Shown in pieces: positions 166-33,273 of a stretch of 33,273 nucleotides of DNA. Location of the stretch: IMG/VR virus record IMGVR_UViG_3300049846_000641, positions 1-33,273 of that record. The stretch is one strand, 5' to 3'. The position numbers and the translations under genes are program-made. Source of the stretch: a virus. The notes beneath the pieces were generated by a model. The model made no database searches. It saw only the letters and a program-made list of their open reading frames with translations, and was not told where the DNA came from. Numbering within the stretch: position 1 is the stretch's first letter; every line of letters starts with the position of its first letter.

Positions 166-345
166 ATGACAAAGATGGAAATGATAGCTGCACTTGTAGA
201 GATACTTAATAGTGTAGAGTTATTTAAGGTTGGAATTTATACGGAAGCTCAGTGCGTTATTGATATGGCCGAGGCAATGCTAGAACAAGAAGGATGGCAA
301 AGAAATTCAATAGACGGGCATTGGCAAAAAGATACTGTATGCTAA
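166..345 (+). CDS. Small hypothetical protein, first cassette-like gene (59 aa)
   Basis: An ATG at 166 is preceded by a good ribosome binding site (GGAGAGAG, 157-164) and the frame runs 59 codons to TAA at 343-345. The protein is acidic, probably helical, has no membrane segment and matches no family I recognise. Its stop codon overlaps the R''-like end of the first attC-like site (340-346), as is usual for integron cassette genes. No clear R' sequence complementary to that R'' was found upstream, so the left border of the array is not defined. It lies in the rightward early operon, about 50 bases after the gene that crosses the circle junction. Confidence 0.7.
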   Translation: MTKMEMIAALVEILNSVELFKVGIYTEAQCVIDMAEAMLEQEGWQRNSIDGHWQKDTVC

Positions 346-402
346 CGGTGAGGTAATGGGTGGCTGCGCGTTAGCGCGTCCCGCTTGACCGATAAGTTAT
401 AC
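340..402 (+). repeat. attC: attC-like site a (integron cassette recombination site)
   Basis: The R''-like end is TGCTAAC (340-346), with a CGCG/CGCG stem (367-370 with 375-378, loop TTAG) at the centre, and the R' end is GTTATAC (396-402). The extended R' GTTATACAC (396-404) is the exact reverse complement of GTGTATAAC at 602-610, which is the R'' of the next cassette. The 63-base length is in the normal attC range. Confidence 0.75.
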
Positions 403-417
403 ACAAATGGAGGATTT

Positions 418-609
418 ATGAAAAAATTAAGCAGCGCACAACAGGCCGCCTTAAACAAATTAAGTAAAACAAAATACCAAAGCGCGGATGATTTAGGTGT
501 AAGTATTACTACTTTAGACTGCCTAGTAAAAAAAGGTAAAGCATTAAAAAAGCACGATGGAAGGCATTTTGTACACCCTAGAACATGTATTTTGTACATT
601 GGTGTATAA
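418..609 (+). CDS. Cassette gene: small winged-helix-like protein (63 aa)
   Basis: The start ATG at 418 follows GGAGG at 409-413; an in-frame ATG at 385 lies inside the attC-like site and is not used here. The basic protein has a helix-rich first half with a pattern like a small helix-turn-helix or winged helix: an alanine/leucine helix at residues 5-15, then SADDLGVSITTLDCLVKKG at about 23-41. A role in DNA binding is therefore possible but unproven. The stop TAA (607-609) lies inside the R'' end of attC-like site b, so this is one ORF per cassette. The cassette would span about 397-658 (262 bp). It has no promoter of its own that I can see and would depend on read-through from the early promoters. 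Confidence 0.8.
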   Translation: MKKLSSAQQAALNKLSKTKYQSADDLGVSITTLDCLVKKGKALKKHDGRHFVHPRTCILYIGV

Positions 610-664
610 CGTATGAATTGAGGCTGCGAGCTTGCGAGCATCGCACTTGAACGATTTGTTGTAC
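604..664 (+). repeat. attC: attC-like site b
   Basis: R'' GTATAAC (604-610) and R' GTTGTAC (658-664) bound a stem at 625-645: TGCGA pairs with TCGCA and GC pairs with GC, leaving A640 unpaired. An unpaired extrahelical base is typical of folded attC strands. The R' GTTGTACAC (658-666) is exactly complementary to GTGTACAAC (862-870) behind the next gene. Confidence 0.85.
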
Positions 665-685
665 ACAACTAAGAGAGGATTATTT

Positions 686-859
686 ATGAGTAAGTTTTTA
701 GCAACAGTTTTTGTTTTATCGGCACTGATTGGATTAGGCGTGCTGGTTATGATGTATGGATGGGGCTTAGAGGTTAAAAGCTGGCCGTGGGTGATAGGTG
801 GAGGAGTTTTTGGGCAAGCGTTTTTGAAGATTATTGGTGATAAAGTTATTAGTGAATAG
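686..859 (+). CDS. Cassette gene: small membrane protein (57 aa)
   Basis: The start ATG at 686 is preceded by AGAGAGGA (672-679); an ATG at 632 in the same frame lies within the attC-like site. The protein has a strong hydrophobic N-terminal segment (about residues 4-24) and a second weaker glycine-rich one (about 34-48), so one or two membrane passes are expected. No family is recognised. The stop TAG (857-859) is three bases before the R'' of attC-like site c. The cassette would be about 659-934 (276 bp). Confidence 0.8.
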   Translation: MSKFLATVFVLSALIGLGVLVMMYGWGLEVKSWPWVIGGGVFGQAFLKIIGDKVISE

Positions 860-863
860 TGGT

Positions 864-940
864 GTACAACGTGTGAATTGAGGCGCGGCCTTTAGGCCGT
901 CGCACGAGTGTAACGAGTAAACTCGAATGATTTGTTAGGT
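864..940 (+). repeat. attC: attC-like site c
   Basis: R'' GTACAAC (864-870) and R' GTTAGGT (934-940) bound a stem: GCG-CGGCC (883-890) pairs with GGCCG-CGC (895-903), leaving T900 unpaired. An extra small inverted repeat (CGAGT...ACTCG, about 904-925) makes this the longest site at 77 bases. R' GTTAGGTGC (934-942) is exactly complementary to GCACCTAAC (1128-1136). Confidence 0.85.
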
Positions 941-960
941 GCGAAATAAAGGAAAATTTT

Positions 961-1128
961 ATGTTTAATTATACGCTAAAGATAGACGGTGATACCGTAA
1001 AAATAACTACTTATGCAACGATAAAAGACGCAGTTATAAAAATTATATATGACCCGCTAAATGGTAAAGTTATAAATGCTACCGCTGGTGTGTTTGAGTT
1101 TGTTCCAGCAAATAGAGTTATGTTTTAG
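961..1128 (+). CDS. Cassette gene: small hypothetical protein (55 aa)
   Basis: An ATG at 961 follows AAAGGA (948-953). The 55-residue product alternates charged and beta-branched residues and looks like a small beta-rich cytoplasmic domain; no family is recognised. It is too short for most gene finders, but its position is exact: it starts 20 bases after the R' of site c, and the last base of its TAG stop (1126-1128) is the first base of the R'' complement GCACCTAAC. The cassette would be about 935-1188 (254 bp). Confidence 0.75.
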   Translation: MFNYTLKIDGDTVKITTYATIKDAVIKIIYDPLNGKVINATAGVFEFVPANRVMF

Positions 1129-1129
1129 C

Positions 1130-1194
1130 ACCTAACGCCCGAAATGAGGGGTGAGCCACATAGTGGCGAATCCCTCTCGATTGAGTTGTTAGGC
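1130..1194 (+). repeat. attC: attC-like site d
   Basis: This is the best match to the attC consensus. R'' ACCTAAC (1130-1136) fits RYYYAAC and R' GTTAGGC (1188-1194) fits GTTRRRY. GAGGG (1146-1150) pairs with CCCTC (1172-1176), and GCCAC (1155-1159) pairs with GTGGC (1163-1167) around an ATA loop. R' GTTAGGCAC (1188-1196) is exactly complementary to GTGCCTAAC at 1449-1457. Confidence 0.9.
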
Positions 1195-1219
1195 ACAAAC
1201 CAACAAAGGAGTAATAGAA

Positions 1220-1456
1220 ATGAATATGGTACAAATGGCTGCCAAAATGCAAGACTGCAACGACACGGCAAAATCATTCTACGGCGACAAGTACGATGAA
1301 AAGATAAAGCCAATTAAGGAAGCAATAAACAGGCTTTCTGAGCAAGATGGCAAAGGTGTTTTACCTGCTGCAATAAAACTGGCTCAACTAAACAAAGAAA
1401 ATGGAATGGTAAGCATGATGATATTTTCTGCGGCTGTTGATATGGTTGGTGCCTAA
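1220..1456 (+). CDS. Cassette gene: small helical phage-type protein (78 aa)
   Basis: An ATG at 1220 follows AAAGGAG (1205-1211). The protein is almost wholly helical: a charged first half (DKYDEKIKPIKEAI, about 24-37) is followed by a more hydrophobic C-terminal helix (MVSMMIFSAAVDMV). Small proteins of this pattern occur in early regions of many tailed phages, but I know no function. It starts 25 bases after the R' of site d, and its stop TAA (1454-1456) lies inside GTGCCTAAC, the perfect complement of that R'. It is therefore a complete cassette gene even though no R' follows it. Confidence 0.85.
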   Translation: MNMVQMAAKMQDCNDTAKSFYGDKYDEKIKPIKEAINRLSEQDGKGVLPAAIKLAQLNKENGMVSMMIFSAAVDMVGA

Positions 1457-1457
1457 C
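1449..1457 (+). repeat. attC R'' half-site e (right edge of the cassette array)
   Basis: GTGCCTAAC is the exact reverse complement of the cassette start GTTAGGCAC at 1188-1196. The rest of an attC site (stem and R') is missing: the next gene begins within about 27 bases. This looks like the scar of a deleted attC. Confidence 0.7.
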
Positions 1458-1483
1458 TAAAGAATATGGGGAGCTTGCAAGGT

Positions 1484-1789
1484 ATGGCGTATAGAACCAC
1501 AAAAAAAGCACAAGAAATATGCGCAAGAATGCGAACAGCCAAAGAAAGGAAGCGTTTGGCGGATGAGGTGCCGGACTATCCACCAATGTTGCCAGATCTA
1601 CGGCGCACAATCATTATTATTGACCATGATTTTGGCGATAAAGAAAACAGAATTGAGCTTTATAAAACAAGCCGGATTGACTGCTTTAGAGCAATTGTAA
1701 ACGGCAAGGAGTGGAAAAAACGCATTGGATTTAGCGGAGTGCTTGAAGGTATCAGAAAGAGCATGCCTAGATTAACCACTAGGATTTAG
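1484..1789 (+). CDS. Conserved-type small phage protein (101 aa)
   Basis: The start ATG at 1484 is chosen because GGGGAG (1468-1473) lies 10 bases before it; an in-frame ATG at 1466 would have no ribosome binding site. The protein is strongly basic at the N-terminus (an arginine/lysine helix, residues 3-25), has a PDYPPMLP motif near residues 30-37, then a beta-rich core and a basic C-terminus. Proteins of this shape are common small phage genes of unknown function. The stop is followed by GTCTAAC (1791-1797), which fits the attC R'' consensus, but no complementary R' stands in front of this gene, so membership in the cassette array is uncertain. Confidence 0.75.
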   Translation: MAYRTTKKAQEICARMRTAKERKRLADEVPDYPPMLPDLRRTIIIIDHDFGDKENRIELYKTSRIDCFRAIVNGKEWKKRIGFSGVLEGIRKSMPRLTTRI

Positions 1790-8558: not shown

Positions 8559-9669
8559 AGGTAAAACCTCCACCCGTATCATTGGTACGGCTTTGTGCTA
8601 CTGGCTCACTTACCTGTAATGTATAGGCATCGCGATGCGTCAAACAAAATTGCGTTGTATGGCCATCATACAAATTAATGTTGTGGGTGATTCCTTTAAT
8701 CAACATCATTGCATTGATCTTGCAATCTTCATCAACAACCTGAGCTAATCCGTTAAGCTCATAAGGCTTTAATGTAAGCGGATTCACTACCCCATCAATA
8801 GTGCAGTAATACTCGATTGATCTTGCTTTGCGGATGTTGGATTCCCATTTAGCGCGCTCTAATGTCGTGCTTTGATCGCTTGGGTTTTCAGCAATGATGG
8901 TCATGATGCGGCTTGCTCTGACTTCAGAATCAAACACTTCGCCACTTTGCACGTTAACAACATCCTCTAACGATGGCACACCAAAGTTATTAGCCCCGAC
9001 TAAGTTAGACTGGCTGACTACTACATAGCGACCATAGCGGTTAGACCAATCAAAACTAGCTCGTGATTCAAGCAAATTGTTTTCGCCGTTAATATCATCT
9101 TTTAGATTGATGAATTTAAGCCCAGTATCAACAGGCTGGCCTCGTGTCACTACAATGTCACCATTTCCGTTTGTGGTTACCAACACTTGCTTTTTGCGCG
9201 CATGTTGCTCGATTAGGTCAAAGCAGCTTTGCTGAGCCTCGCAAGAAATAATGTCCTCTTTGCCAAAGTCAGAAACGGTTTCTTCTAATACGATAGGCTG
9301 ACTTAACCCAATAGCATTTTGTGTTTTGTTGATAACATCACTCATTGAAATAGTGGGGTTTAGCTCAACAGCAGCAGCCCCTAGCGTTGAGTCAATAAGG
9401 TCTGCGGTTACATCACGTCCGGCCACCTCAACATTGTGATCACGAGCACTTACATTAGGGTTTAGGTAGTCCACGTATCCGGTCACGATAGGAACCCCAT
9501 CGACTGCCACCTTAACGCTAGAACCAACCTTTATTGGGAACTCACCCGCGTCTGCATCTGTGGCGGTAATGTTGAAGGAACCGCTAAAATCATCAAGCGA
9601 ACGGCTAACAGCGATAGACACAAAGTTTTCAAAAGGCTGACCATCAACTTCCATGTAAACCGTGGTCAT
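8551..9669 (-). CDS. Baseplate hub protein, Mu gp44 / P2 gpD-like
   Basis: This 372-residue hub protein has the late-control D / gp44 fold. Its N-terminal beta domain begins TTVYMEVDGQPFENF, has SRSLDDFSGSF, and contains VPIVTGYVDYLNPNVSARDHNVEVAGRDVTADLIDST. A central domain and a C-terminal region with THRDAY complete it. It forms the trimeric hub that carries the gp45 spike. The ATG overlaps the TGA of the gp43-like gene. Confidence 0.92.
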   Translation of the reverse strand: MTTVYMEVDGQPFENFVSIAVSRSLDDFSGSFNITATDADAGEFPIKVGSSVKVAVDGVPIVTGYVDYLNPNVSARDHNVEVAGRDVTADLIDSTLGAAAVELNPTISMSDVINKTQNAIGLSQPIVLEETVSDFGKEDIISCEAQQSCFDLIEQHARKKQVLVTTNGNGDIVVTRGQPVDTGLKFINLKDDINGENNLLESRASFDWSNRYGRYVVVSQSNLVGANNFGVPSLEDVVNVQSGEVFDSEVRASRIMTIIAENPSDQSTTLERAKWESNIRKARSIEYYCTIDGVVNPLTLKPYELNGLAQVVDEDCKINAMMLIKGITHNINLYDGHTTQFCLTHRDAYTLQVSEPVAQSRTNDTGGGFTFE

Positions 9670-10889
9670 TGCGTTAAGACCTCTACATCACCAACCATAC
9701 TTTCAAGGTTGTTGCTTTTTGGCCGGTTAAGGTCGATCAATGTACTAAATGTTTCATCATAATCGGTCTGTTCTTTTTCGGCATAGTAGCTATAGGCCAA
9801 CACTTGCAAAGGCATTCTGCGAGTTTCAACAGTCACCACATCTGCCGCAGTTAGCTTTTCTTGCTCCAAGAATGCGATAACAGACGTGCGAATGTTAGAC
9901 AATTCAAGTAATACCGAAGGGTCAAGATCATAGCCTTGCAGCTTGGTAAACTCTGTATTTAGTTGGTTTTGCACTTGCTCAATAGCGTCAACTGTTGTGT
10001 ATTCAATTTGGCAAGCCGCTTGATAGGCATAGGCAAGGTTTACCGATTGAACCGTATTTCTAATTAAAGCCGTGTTTGTGTTTGTCTCTACACGCTGCAC
10101 AGTGGTCGGTTGATAGAATTGCGCGTCATCTTCAAAACCAAAAAACCTGCTATACACATCATAAAGAGTTTCAGGCGCATCAAATAACCCCTCAACATTG
10201 CCCATGATCTCAAAGAAGTCATCGGCTAAGTTTTGCGGTACAGGGATAAGCGAAGTAATGTTACTTCTAAAAGTAGTGATCAGATTGTTAAATGGGCTTA
10301 CCGCGCTTTGCACTTGCGAGAATGTGTTAACAATGCTTTGTGTTGTATCTGTAAAAGTGTCAAATAATCCGACCGCTGACTCATAGCTTAAAGGGCTAAT
10401 AGCGTTAAACGTATTAACAAAGCTTGTCTTTGCAGAATCAACAAAACCACTAATGCGCTGGCTAATAGACGATAGGGAGTTGGTGACTAGGCTAGGGTTA
10501 GTCTTAGCAAAGTTATAATCAAACTCCATTGTGATAGTGGCTTTACCTAAAGCCGCCATTGATTCGTCTAACGTATATGGGCGGGCTGTCACCTCAAAGC
10601 TTGACTCAAAGAAAGGGTGGCTAAGTGTGCCGTTCCCCGCTGTCTCTAACGCTTTTAAAAGTTCATCGCGTTTCTGAAAATAAGAACGCGGATCATTAGC
10701 ATTTGCGCCGGTTATGATAGCGGTTAGCTTGAAGTTGCGAGGTTTAAAACCTAAGTCCTCAACGCTCTGTTTGTCAGAATTAACGTATTCATGCAAAACC
10801 TGCTTTCTTCCGCCAGAAGTAGTAGCAGATACAACCAAAAAAGAAGCACCCCTAAAACTACCACTATTTAGCTGATCTAGAATTGACAC
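9666..10889 (-). CDS. Mu gp43 / DNA circularization N-terminal family tail protein
   Basis: This 407-residue protein begins with the family's N-terminal domain (SGSFRGASFLVVSATTSGGRK, then FKLTAIITG), in the place of Mu gpN, a tail or baseplate protein that helps link tube and hub. The annotated family name 'DNA circularization' is historical. The start is GTG 10889 with a strong GAGGAGG. In front of it lies an antisense HNH gene, and beyond that a second, diverged copy of its first 28 or so codons (11463-11549). The present gene is complete, and its own ribosome binding site replaces coupling to the tape measure gene. Confidence 0.9.
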   Translation of the reverse strand: MSILDQLNSGSFRGASFLVVSATTSGGRKQVLHEYVNSDKQSVEDLGFKPRNFKLTAIITGANANDPRSYFQKRDELLKALETAGNGTLSHPFFESSFEVTARPYTLDESMAALGKATITMEFDYNFAKTNPSLVTNSLSSISQRISGFVDSAKTSFVNTFNAISPLSYESAVGLFDTFTDTTQSIVNTFSQVQSAVSPFNNLITTFRSNITSLIPVPQNLADDFFEIMGNVEGLFDAPETLYDVYSRFFGFEDDAQFYQPTTVQRVETNTNTALIRNTVQSVNLAYAYQAACQIEYTTVDAIEQVQNQLNTEFTKLQGYDLDPSVLLELSNIRTSVIAFLEQEKLTAADVVTVETRRMPLQVLAYSYYAEKEQTDYDETFSTLIDLNRPKSNNLESMVGDVEVLTQ

Positions 10890-10943
10890 ATTAACCTCCT
10901 CGTGTTAGTTTGATGCAAACACGAAAATTTAAAGGATGCGTAT

Positions 10944-11462
10944 ATGCTAAATAAGGAATATCTAAATGAGTGCTTTGATGCTGATTTTGAGGCTGGAACA
11001 TTAACATGGAAAAAAAGACCTCTTAATCATTTCAAAAACAAAAATGCGTTTAATGTTTTTAATGCTCAACAAGCTGGAAAAACTGTTAATACAATTGCAA
11101 GGTTTTATAAGACTGTTGGCATAAATTACAAAAGATATCAACAGCATACCATATTGTTTATAATGTATCATGGATATAAACCATTTCAAATAGACCACAT
11201 TGATGGTAATAAACTAAATAACTCAATATCAAATTTGCGAGAATGCACATCGTCACAAAATAACATGAACTCAAGCTTACAAAAAAACTCAACAACCAAG
11301 CTCAAAGGAGTCTCCTTCAATAAGAGAAAAAATAAGTTTGAGGCTTCTATAATGGCAAATTATGTTAAATACAGGCTTGGGCTTTTTGATACGGCAGAGG
11401 ATGCAAAGCGTGCCTATAATGCTGCGGCAAATAAATTGCACGGATGCTTTGCCAAGATTTAG
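10944..11462 (+). CDS. HNH/AP2 homing-type endonuclease, antisense insert (172 aa)
   Basis: The ATG at 10944 follows AAAGGA (10931-10936). An HNH_3 core at about residues 83-106 (IDHIDGNKLNNSISNLRE) is followed by SSQNNMN and a complete AP2 domain from about 118 (LKGVSFNKRKNKF...LGLFDTAEDAKRAYNAAA). It is the only gene on the plus strand within the leftward tail operon. It lies between the broken 5' copy and the intact copy of the gp43-like gene, the usual place of an invading endonuclease gene. It is flanked by its probable target sequence. Confidence 0.93.
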   Translation: MLNKEYLNECFDADFEAGTLTWKKRPLNHFKNKNAFNVFNAQQAGKTVNTIARFYKTVGINYKRYQQHTILFIMYHGYKPFQIDHIDGNKLNNSISNLRECTSSQNNMNSSLQKNSTTKLKGVSFNKRKNKFEASIMANYVKYRLGLFDTAEDAKRAYNAAANKLHGCFAKI

Positions 11463-30787: not shown

Positions 30788-30816
30788 TTTACTTGGTACG
30801 CTAAACGGCCTATAGT
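30788..30816 (+). promoter_or_regulatory. Early rightward promoter P1 with operator-like sequence
   Basis: TTTACT (30788-30793), 17 bases, TATAGT (30811-30816). The element GTACGCT is repeated at 30796-30802 and 30815-30821, the second copy touching the -10 box. The same layout is found at 32842-32870. It probably drives the operon from 30872 rightward, and is likely controlled by the Cro-like protein at 32635. Confidence 0.75.
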
Positions 30817-30871
30817 ACGCTCATAGGGTGATTGATCAGCCCTATTAACCAAAGACAAACAAGGGGAAGCT

Positions 30872-31253: not shown

Positions 31254-31460
31254 ATGAAAAAACGACTAACACTTGAACAAAGACGCGAACAACTAAGAAA
31301 AGAGTTTATAGGCAGTGATGACCAAGCCGAATGGTTATACCAAGATGCGGCGTTATGCTTGCGCTATGGCGGTGAGATTACTGAGGATCACATGCAAGCA
31401 ATCAAATATAAGCACCGCAAACTGGTACAACAAAAAGCACAACAAGGAGCGCCGTTCTAA
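31254..31460 (+). CDS. Hypothetical early protein (68 aa)
   Basis: This highly charged helical protein (KKRLTLEQRREQLRKEFIGSDDQAEWLYQDAALCLRYGGEI) has its stop overlapping the ATG of the Gp157-like gene by one base. No family is recognised. It is preceded by GAGAGG. Confidence 0.7.
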   Translation: MKKRLTLEQRREQLRKEFIGSDDQAEWLYQDAALCLRYGGEITEDHMQAIKYKHRKLVQQKAQQGAPF

Positions 31461-31951
31461 TGAAACTGTACGAGATAACTGACCAATACAATAACGCGCT
31501 CAACGAGTTGCTTTACAATGAAGATATACCGCAAGATGCTGCAATTGATACGTTAGAGGCATTAGAAGGTGAGCTTGTAGCAAAAGGTCAAAACGTGGCT
31601 GCATTTATTTTAAATTTAAACTACGACATTGAGACGCTAAAAGCGCACGAAAAAACCATCGCAGCCAAGCGTAAAGCTATGGAATCAAAACAGGAATGGT
31701 TGCGTGAGTACCTGTTAACTAAAATGATGAAAAGCGGAATAACAGAAATTAAAGCTATCGATGGCAGCTTTAAGGTCAAGTTTAGCGAAGGCCGCGAAAG
31801 TGTTGTAATTGACAATGATGAATTGATAGATGAAAGATTTTTAAAAGTAAAAACGGAGGTGAGCAAATCAGCAATACAAGAAGCCATTAAAAATGGTGAG
31901 GCAGTAAAAGGCGCACACATTGAGAAAAAACCATATATAACCATTAAATAA
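31460..31951 (+). CDS. Siphovirus Gp157-like protein
   Basis: This 163-residue protein has the Gp157 pattern: an N-terminal MKLYEITDQYNNALNELL segment, a long coiled coil (about 55-95: LNLNYDIETLKAHEKTIAAKRKAMESKQEWLREYL), and a C-terminal KVKFSEGRESVVIDNDELI...VKTEVSKSAIQEAIKNGE block. Gp157 proteins are found next to recombination and ssDNA-binding genes in many phages; their role is not settled, although some have been linked to phage resistance. Confidence 0.93.
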   Translation: MKLYEITDQYNNALNELLYNEDIPQDAAIDTLEALEGELVAKGQNVAAFILNLNYDIETLKAHEKTIAAKRKAMESKQEWLREYLLTKMMKSGITEIKAIDGSFKVKFSEGRESVVIDNDELIDERFLKVKTEVSKSAIQEAIKNGEAVKGAHIEKKPYITIK

Positions 31952-31964
31952 AGAGGGTAAAACC

Positions 31965-32597
31965 ATGGGATTAAAAGCACCAGCACAAGAGCATAAAGAG
32001 TTTGAAAAAGCACCAGCAGGAAACCACATAGCAACGTGTTACGTTGTATGCGATCTAGGGTTGCAGGAAAAAAATTATAACGGCGTAAAATCATTTGAGC
32101 ATCAAGTACGGCTTGCATGGGAATTGCCTAACGAAACAATGCAGGATGGCCGCGTCTTTTCTATCAGTCAAGACTTTAAGCTGTCGATGGCTGAATATAA
32201 GGGCACAAAATCAAAACTGCGCTCTTATCTTGAGTCTTGGCGCGGCAAACCATTTACACAAGAAGAAGCAAACGATTTTGACATTTTTTCTGTGTGTGGT
32301 CGGTCATGTATGCTTAACATAGTACACAAACCCAATCAGGACGGTACGCGCACCTATGCAAATATCAGCGCAGTTGCACCGCTACCAAAGGGAATGACGG
32401 CTCCGCAAATGATCAACGAGCCGATTATGTACGCGATTGATGGCGATGGAATGCAGTTTGAAGAATTGCCAGAGCATTTACAGAAAAAGGTAAACAGAAA
32501 CAAGCCGGCGCCTTTATACCCTGACGAAGGAATGCCGCCGCCAGAGTATAACGAGCCACCAAAACCCGACGACTTTGATGACGACATTAACTGGTAA
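31965..32597 (+). CDS. Probable single-stranded DNA-binding protein with acidic SSB-like tail (210 aa)
   Basis: The ATG at 31965 follows AGAGGG. The first 150 residues form a beta-rich domain (GNHIATCYVVCDLGLQEKNY; QVRLAWELPNE; SCMLNIVHKPN; TYANISAVAPLP) like the OB-type phage proteins next to Gp157. A proline-rich linker (PAPLYPDEGMPPPEYNEPPKP) is followed by the acidic end DDFDDDINW, similar to the DDDIPF tail by which SSB binds partner proteins. Function in replication or recombination is inferred. Confidence 0.78.
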   Translation: MGLKAPAQEHKEFEKAPAGNHIATCYVVCDLGLQEKNYNGVKSFEHQVRLAWELPNETMQDGRVFSISQDFKLSMAEYKGTKSKLRSYLESWRGKPFTQEEANDFDIFSVCGRSCMLNIVHKPNQDGTRTYANISAVAPLPKGMTAPQMINEPIMYAIDGDGMQFEELPEHLQKKVNRNKPAPLYPDEGMPPPEYNEPPKPDDFDDDINW

Positions 32598-32841: not shown

Positions 32842-32870
32842 TTTACATGGTGCGCTAAACGTACTATTAT
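32842..32870 (+). promoter_or_regulatory. Second early rightward promoter P2 with the same operator-like sequence
   Basis: TTTACA (32842-32847), 17 bases, TATTAT (32865-32870). The surrounding sequence is closely similar to P1: TTTAC-TGGT-CGCTAAACG in the spacer and GCTCAT behind the -10. It would transcribe the 119-residue gene and, past the circle junction, the cassette array and lysis genes. Confidence 0.78.
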
Positions 32871-32903
32871 ATGCTCATGGTAACAATTGAAAGGGGAAAT
32901 CAA

Positions 32904-33263
32904 ATGTCTATCGTCTGCGACCTAAAGATCAAACGATACTTGTTTGACGAAGTAATGCCTAACTATAGCCGTGGTAATGAGCCTGAAAGCTGGCATTATT
33001 TAACAGAAGAACAGCAAAAAGATATTAAGCAGATATGGTTAGAAGAAAATCTTAATGACTGCTTTGGCGACATAATGGCCTATTATTTTGAATCCGATAG
33101 CCACATTGGCTCTCACTATTTAATTTGCAGCTATATTGCCAGCGGAAATTATAAAAGCGTTGGCGGCATTGTTGTTGATGCGGCAAAAGAATACTTTGAT
33201 CGTATTAAATTTATAGATGAAGTAAACGATTTGATTTATGAGTGCTTGCAGCCTGTTGATTAA
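32904..33263 (+). CDS. Antirestriction-like or unknown early protein (119 aa)
   Basis: The ATG at 32904 follows GGGGA; an ATG at 32871 lies directly on the -10 region of P2 and cannot be the main start. The protein is acidic (VMPNYSRGNEPESWHYLTEEQQ; ENLNDCFGDIMAYYFESDSHIG) with a mostly helical pattern, as DNA-mimic or antirestriction-type proteins often are, but no family is recognised. It crosses into the overlap with the left end of the window and is followed there by the cassette region. Confidence 0.75.
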   Translation: MSIVCDLKIKRYLFDEVMPNYSRGNEPESWHYLTEEQQKDIKQIWLEENLNDCFGDIMAYYFESDSHIGSHYLICSYIASGNYKSVGGIVVDAAKEYFDRIKFIDEVNDLIYECLQPVD

Positions 33264-33273
33264 CTGTTGAAGT
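33147..33273. repeat. Terminal direct repeat, right copy (circular closure)
   Basis: Identical to bases 1-127. See the left copy: the repeat marks circular closure of the contig. Confidence 0.95.

Follow-up and report, generated by a model that had tools for sequence, protein, structure and literature searches.

An integron-type cassette array without an integrase, its genes reversed relative to their attC sites, in the early operon of a phage

Phages are known to carry clusters of attC sites lacking an integron integrase (CALINs). Qi et al. (2023; PMC9892861) described 17 of them, including those of TJE1, H101/PH101, P12002L and MW202573, and in their assay attI1 recombined with five of the six sites examined, which came from TJE1, PH101 and P12002L. 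Cassettes inserted at G|TT outside any integron (attG insertions; Loot et al. 2024, as summarized in passages of PMC12901181 and PMC12444791) have also been described. In chromosomal integrons, the recombinogenic attC strand is placed on the leading-strand template, which limits excision (PMC11023631).

Here, we analyzed a stretch of viral DNA of 33,273 bases (the window), in which four small cassettes lie within a phage early operon. We consider it very probable that they form an array without an integrase and of reversed design, belonging to a wider class of phage arrays that trade accessory genes. The locus resembles the phage CALINs of PMC9892861 in being an attC array without an integrase in a phage genome, and these 17 published cases correct the original prediction, which took such arrays to be not commonly described. 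It shares attC structure, cassette-unit integrity and G|TT boundaries with sedentary chromosomal and class 1 integrons, whereas those have intI, attI and Pc, carry their genes along attC in 117 of 127 cassettes, and have longer cassettes (median span about 510-520 versus 272 bp). Like the attG insertions, as far as those passages outline them, its cassettes occupy a predicted G|TT site outside any integron; unlike them, it is an array of four, lies in a phage and has reversed genes.

The closest counterpart is MW202573 (L182, 413-3738), in which five attC matches lie on the minus strand and the annotated genes on the plus strand, just downstream of gp157. It has the reversed polarity and the early-operon neighbors of the window, including a homolog of the 210-aa early protein that is likewise upstream of the attC array, despite head genes that are P22-like. 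TJE1, in contrast, is of forward polarity, with genes running along their attC sites. The text of PMC9892861 mentions neither the reversal in MW202573 nor a class of reversed phage cassettes, and our further literature search for such cassettes found no report. Phage CALINs are already known; what is unusual, and was missed in the original prediction, is that the genes run against their attC sites and do so in many phages.

The last 127 bases of the window exactly repeat its first 127, which identifies the window as a complete circular genome of 33,146 bp. It encodes a terminase, portal, Mu-F-like protein, capsid protease, capsid, sheath, tape measure, baseplate hub and wedge, and endolysin. 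This set of virion and packaging genes on a complete molecule marks it as a phage genome and, by its content, as that of a contractile-tailed phage of about 33.1 kb. The early operon runs rightward from the Gp157 gene; the 210-aa protein and then small ORFs follow, and past the circular junction the operon reaches the array region (Table 1). In line with the original prediction, which placed the array within a phage early operon, the array genes are co-directional with this operon, and a repeated promoter-like sequence sits about 0.4 kb upstream of the array. Its two near-identical stretches (30788-30826 and 32842-32880; TTTACNTGGTNCGCTAAACG..CTATNNTA), both upstream of early genes, probably constitute a phage-specific pair of regulated promoters. 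Two HNH endonuclease genes (1832-2188 and 2139-2900) lie just downstream of the array, and an HNH-AP2 homing-type gene (10944-11462) sits on the opposite strand between tail genes.

A tblastn search of the complete window with IntI1 gave no match, and among about 40 of its proteins none belonged to a recombinase family. The intI and attI of a complete integron were not recognized in the complete genome. With four tandem attC sites in 855 bp and no integrase gene found, the array classifies as a CALIN, that is, integron-type cassettes without an integrase in a phage genome, and in this the original prediction was right.

Rfam has no attC family, and the window gave no match to it; we therefore built covariance models from plasmid integrons. 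The first model (R1) was derived from 13 attC sites of plasmid class 1 integrons, independently of the window, with a structure written by hand (R boxes, L boxes and the extrahelical base); its training on class 1 integron cassettes distinguishes it from the IntegronFinder model. The second model (R2) was derived from 75 attC sites of other phages. With filters off and every position of the 33-kb window scored, the top four R1 matches were the four sites that had been predicted to be attC-like, and R2 found the same four (E 1e-9 to 8e-4; next best match in the window, E 0.2). The R'' and R' boxes, the L boxes with an extrahelical base and the unequal spacers are all present in the minus-strand alignments to R1. 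Through this agreement of two models in sequence and predicted structure, the four sites are confirmed as genuine attC sites, and the predicted ORF sizes and spacing held as well. A DNA pattern made from the window's own attC half matched no other viral contig.

Table 1. Features of the cassette array and of the early operon in which it lies (positions in the window; cassettes numbered in attC order)
Feature	Position	Strand	Evidence
59-aa ORF outside the G|TT-to-G|TT array	166..345	+	Stop codon TAA forms the predicted insertion site
attC of cassette 4, last of the array	341..402	-	R1 15.0 bits, E 0.095; R2 24.0 bits, E 8e-4
Cassette array (CALIN), four complete cassettes, in attC polarity	346..1456	-	R1 and R2 matches; cassette-end matching
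63-aa gene, cassette 4, antisense to its attC	418..609	+	ORF with GGAGGA
attC of cassette 3	604..664	-	R1 23.0 bits, E 9e-4; R2 30.7 bits, E 2e-5
57-aa probable membrane protein, cassette 3, antisense to its attC	686..859	+	ORF with AGAGGA; translation
attC of cassette 2	864..940	-	R1 26.7 bits, E 1e-4; R2 33.1 bits, E 4e-6
55-aa gene, cassette 2, antisense to its attC	961..1128	+	ORF with AAAGGA
attC of cassette 1	1130..1194	-	R1 44.3 bits, E 3e-9; R2 47.5 bits, E 1e-9; plus strand 4.9 bits
78-aa gene, cassette 1, antisense to its attC	1220..1456	+	ORF, AAAGGAG upstream of ATG
G|TT boundary, array start in attC polarity, operon-distal end	1455..1457	-	TTCTTTAG|TTAGGCACC
107-aa ORF, resident phage gene downstream of the array	1466..1789	+	ORF; search found no relative
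Siphovirus Gp157 family gene, early operon, upstream of the array across the circular junction	31460..31951	+	PF05565, E 7.5e-38
210-aa early-operon protein	31965..32597	+	phrog_862; tblastn 37%, E 9e-33 to MW202573
Promoter-like sequence that could drive the array	32842..32870	+	Consensus, and repeat at 30788-30816, only
127-bp exact copy of 1-127	33147..33273	+	End overlap of the circular complete genome

Every R1 and R2 match was on the minus strand; on the plus strand, these sites scored no more than 4.9 bits, or 7.6 bits for a fragment of the first site. To calibrate strand calls, R1 was run on 80 loci around IntI1-type genes, where all 88 attC sites detected fell on the cassette strand opposite intI, and TJE1 reads forward as published. 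The polarity calls of R1 can therefore be trusted. It did not detect the published sites of H101 and P12002L and so misses some published phage attC sites. Since the attC sites are on the minus strand and the four genes, with good ribosome-binding sites, on the plus strand, each gene runs against its attC, and the usual direction of integron genes along attC is seen in none of the four cassettes (0/4). The original prediction had the attC sites running along the genes; R'' and R' are in fact swapped, and the proposed cassette boundaries and acquisition end are inverted with them.

In attC polarity, the array begins at G1457|TT, its cassettes start at G1457, G1136, G870 and G610, and it ends at G346; beyond the G|TT at 1457, we recognized no attC or attI and only phage sequence. 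Instead of five genes separated by four sites, as predicted, there are four whole cassettes, and the 59-aa ORF left outside them is most likely a resident phage gene, judging from its position. The 78-aa gene, which had seemed to lack an attC, occupies a whole cassette starting at G|TT 1457. The earlier polarity also suggested that 1443-1457 was a truncated fifth attC; this reading was rejected, since with the sites on the minus strand these bases form the left edge of the array, and no attC of the array is truncated. In the last site, that of cassette 4, phage DNA supplies the final R' half past G346. Joining the flanks (345 to 1457) gives the empty site TGTATGCTAA^CTAAAGAAT, which is a predicted one because searches for relatives with the terminase and other window proteins found no array-free relative.

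The cassettes share one design, in which the gene opens immediately past the attC and closes with a stop codon within or adjacent to the other R box; that of the 78-aa gene, for example, falls within the R box GCCTAAC. Over the 11 bases that follow GTT, each cassette's own ends are alike at 10, 9, 10 and 10 positions, whereas neighboring ends, as now joined in the array, are alike at 6, 2 and 7, and pairing each cassette with its own end is the best of all 24 permutations. Such own-end matching, by which each cassette would have a full attC when circular, is the signature expected of units that once existed as circles. The complementarity of the ends extends to about 14 bp, past the 7-bp R box (1457/1188, 1136/934, 870/658 and 610/396). 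Base 10 of the cassette ends is mismatched in all four cassettes (C versus A in three and T versus G in one), and this mismatch is not general in other arrays. The 78-aa protein had no family match above the cut-off and no matching phage record, and Pfam gave the 63-aa protein of cassette 4 a weak, sub-threshold match only.

Is the reversal peculiar to this phage? We searched IMG/VR with a canonical attC pattern blind to genes, followed by R1, and scored gene direction between neighboring attC sites, counting without duplicates; the bacterial baseline consisted of IntI1 loci together with gammaproteobacterial and betaproteobacterial chromosomal arrays. Most of the comparison contigs come from metagenomes, and some are short; in GC-rich contigs the calls of ORF direction are noisy, and a minority of calls are ambiguous. 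The direction of the first TJE1 cassette was taken from the annotation because its gene runs into the attC. Bacterial cassettes were forward in 117 cases and reversed in 10, versus 29 forward and 53 reversed among the viral cassettes (Fisher p 1.3e-18). Furthermore, a ribosome-binding site precedes 43 of the 53 reversed viral genes versus 1 of the 10 reversed bacterial genes. Among forward-type viral contigs, L161 (54.6%), L095 (48.5%) and L108 (partial) match IntI and are thus host integrons or their edges. Contigs with reversed arrays gave no IntI match beyond a weak one to an ordinary phage integrase. These results indicate that back-to-front cassettes are common in phages, with some 15 to 20 further phage sequences showing the design. 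In L137, an ordinary phage tyrosine integrase gene adjoins a reversed attC array (8697-9782 and 10410-11276). One gammaproteobacterial genome (G077; L239, L240 and L241) gave several reversed-gene calls, most without ribosome-binding sites, which could be real, prophage or calling errors.

The survey also bears on the reading adopted in the original prediction, that of an ordinary CALIN from a bacterial integron with genes and attC sites in the same direction. The plus-strand layout does look canonical (short leader, ORF, stop codon in an R box), and TJE1 is an example of a phage with a forward CALIN; both models, however, place all four sites on the minus strand, three of them by 20 to 39 bits, and four of four reversed genes stand against the bacterial count of 117 to 10. 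We regard an ordinary CALIN as highly improbable.

The genes carried by other reversed arrays confirm their reading direction, with homology for three N6_N4_Mtase genes, one dATP/dGTP diphosphohydrolase and one Phage_gp49_66 gene; the last is a plain gene without surrounding attC sites in RSP and phiV10. Several phage arrays hold N6_N4 DNA methyltransferase genes as reversed cassettes (L132 9361-10008, L152 2857-3531, L135 2040-2714 and L153 1-63), possibly as anti-restriction cargo. Next to reversed arrays lie early or recombination genes of phages. In L156, the array follows Erf and then a Gam-like gene; in L132, it follows Bet/RecT and then RecE; RecE is the neighbor in L158 and a phage DNA polymerase in L145. 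The attC sites oppose the operon in all four, as they do in the window and MW202573.

Do reversed cassettes move? In 55 reversed phage cassettes, own-end agreement was 6.98 versus 4.49 for neighboring ends (p 4e-8), and in 156 bacterial cassettes it was 7.19 versus 4.79. A methyltransferase cassette common to L132 and L152 is identical in 59 of 60 bases after G|TT and in 25 of 60 before it, and L145 and L153 have another cassette in common. Such comparisons indicate that reversed phage cassettes move as units. This evidence of exchange, drawn from sequence comparison, is for the reversed class and not for the window's own array, whose four cassettes yielded no homologs.

The hairpins might instead be terminators, processing sites or blocks of homology at which annealing proteins (Erf, Bet, RecT) swap small genes. 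The arrays adjoin genes for ssDNA annealing in several phages, and attC sites can act as weak terminators (PMC9892861). On the other hand, own-end matching and the switch from 59/60 to 25/60 exactly at G|TT are predicted by IntI cleavage and would not be expected if diverged hairpins were annealed, and the L boxes, spacers and extrahelical bases score as those of true attC sites, which leaves this explanation quite unlikely. Less easily set aside, yet still unlikely, is a frozen relic of true attC origin, assembled long ago and inherited as a normal operon without cassette movement. It is in keeping with a genome in which no integrase was found and with cassettes for which no sharing was found, but four of four cassettes retain intact R boxes and extended end complementarity, features that disuse would erode, and related arrays share cassettes.

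A terminase search for close relatives of the phage returned one contig at 56%, ending short of the array region, and searches with the 253-, 78-, 107- and 130-aa window proteins found none. Applied to the early regions of 16 other phages (167 kb), R2 gave no match. No attC was found in sixteen contigs having the 210-aa early gene, and the array is thus not a fixed part of that operon.

We propose, for the reversed array, that each cassette is a mobile unit that would begin after G|TT and end in its attC, and that the array would be read from the phage's own operon promoter, against attC polarity. The phage has no integrase of its own, and recombination would then be carried out by a host integron integrase during infection. 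The original insertion may have been into a non-attC, attG-like G|TT site, and new cassettes would enter at the attC sites or at G1457, the operon-distal end. The role of cassette acceptor that the original prediction gave to the phage is plausible, given an integrase from the host. Why would the polarity remain reversed? With expression from the phage side, only reversed cassettes would be useful in such an array, and their pool would consequently be kept apart from the bacterial one. Reversal may also place the recombinogenic strand of attC on the template of the lagging strand, favoring shuffling, if the operon is co-directional with replication, an idea that rests on the leading-strand placement in chromosomal integrons cited above.

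Phage accessory regions are mosaic and rich in tiny unknown genes. Arrays of this kind would give a site-specific route for swapping single genes, in which phage genes are shuffled as cassettes by host integrases. Reversed polarity tells phage-made cassettes from bacterial ones; because it marks them and predicts the recombining strand, the entry point and silence in a host integron, the idea is testable. Surveys that assume gene and attC to be co-directional will mis-bound phage cassettes. On balance, we favor the view that phages keep a cassette pool of their own, in which accessory genes (methyltransferases, gp49/66, nucleotide hydrolases and tiny unknowns) of inverted polarity would be shuffled among unrelated phages by host integrases, expressed from phage early promoters, and silent if captured by a host integron.
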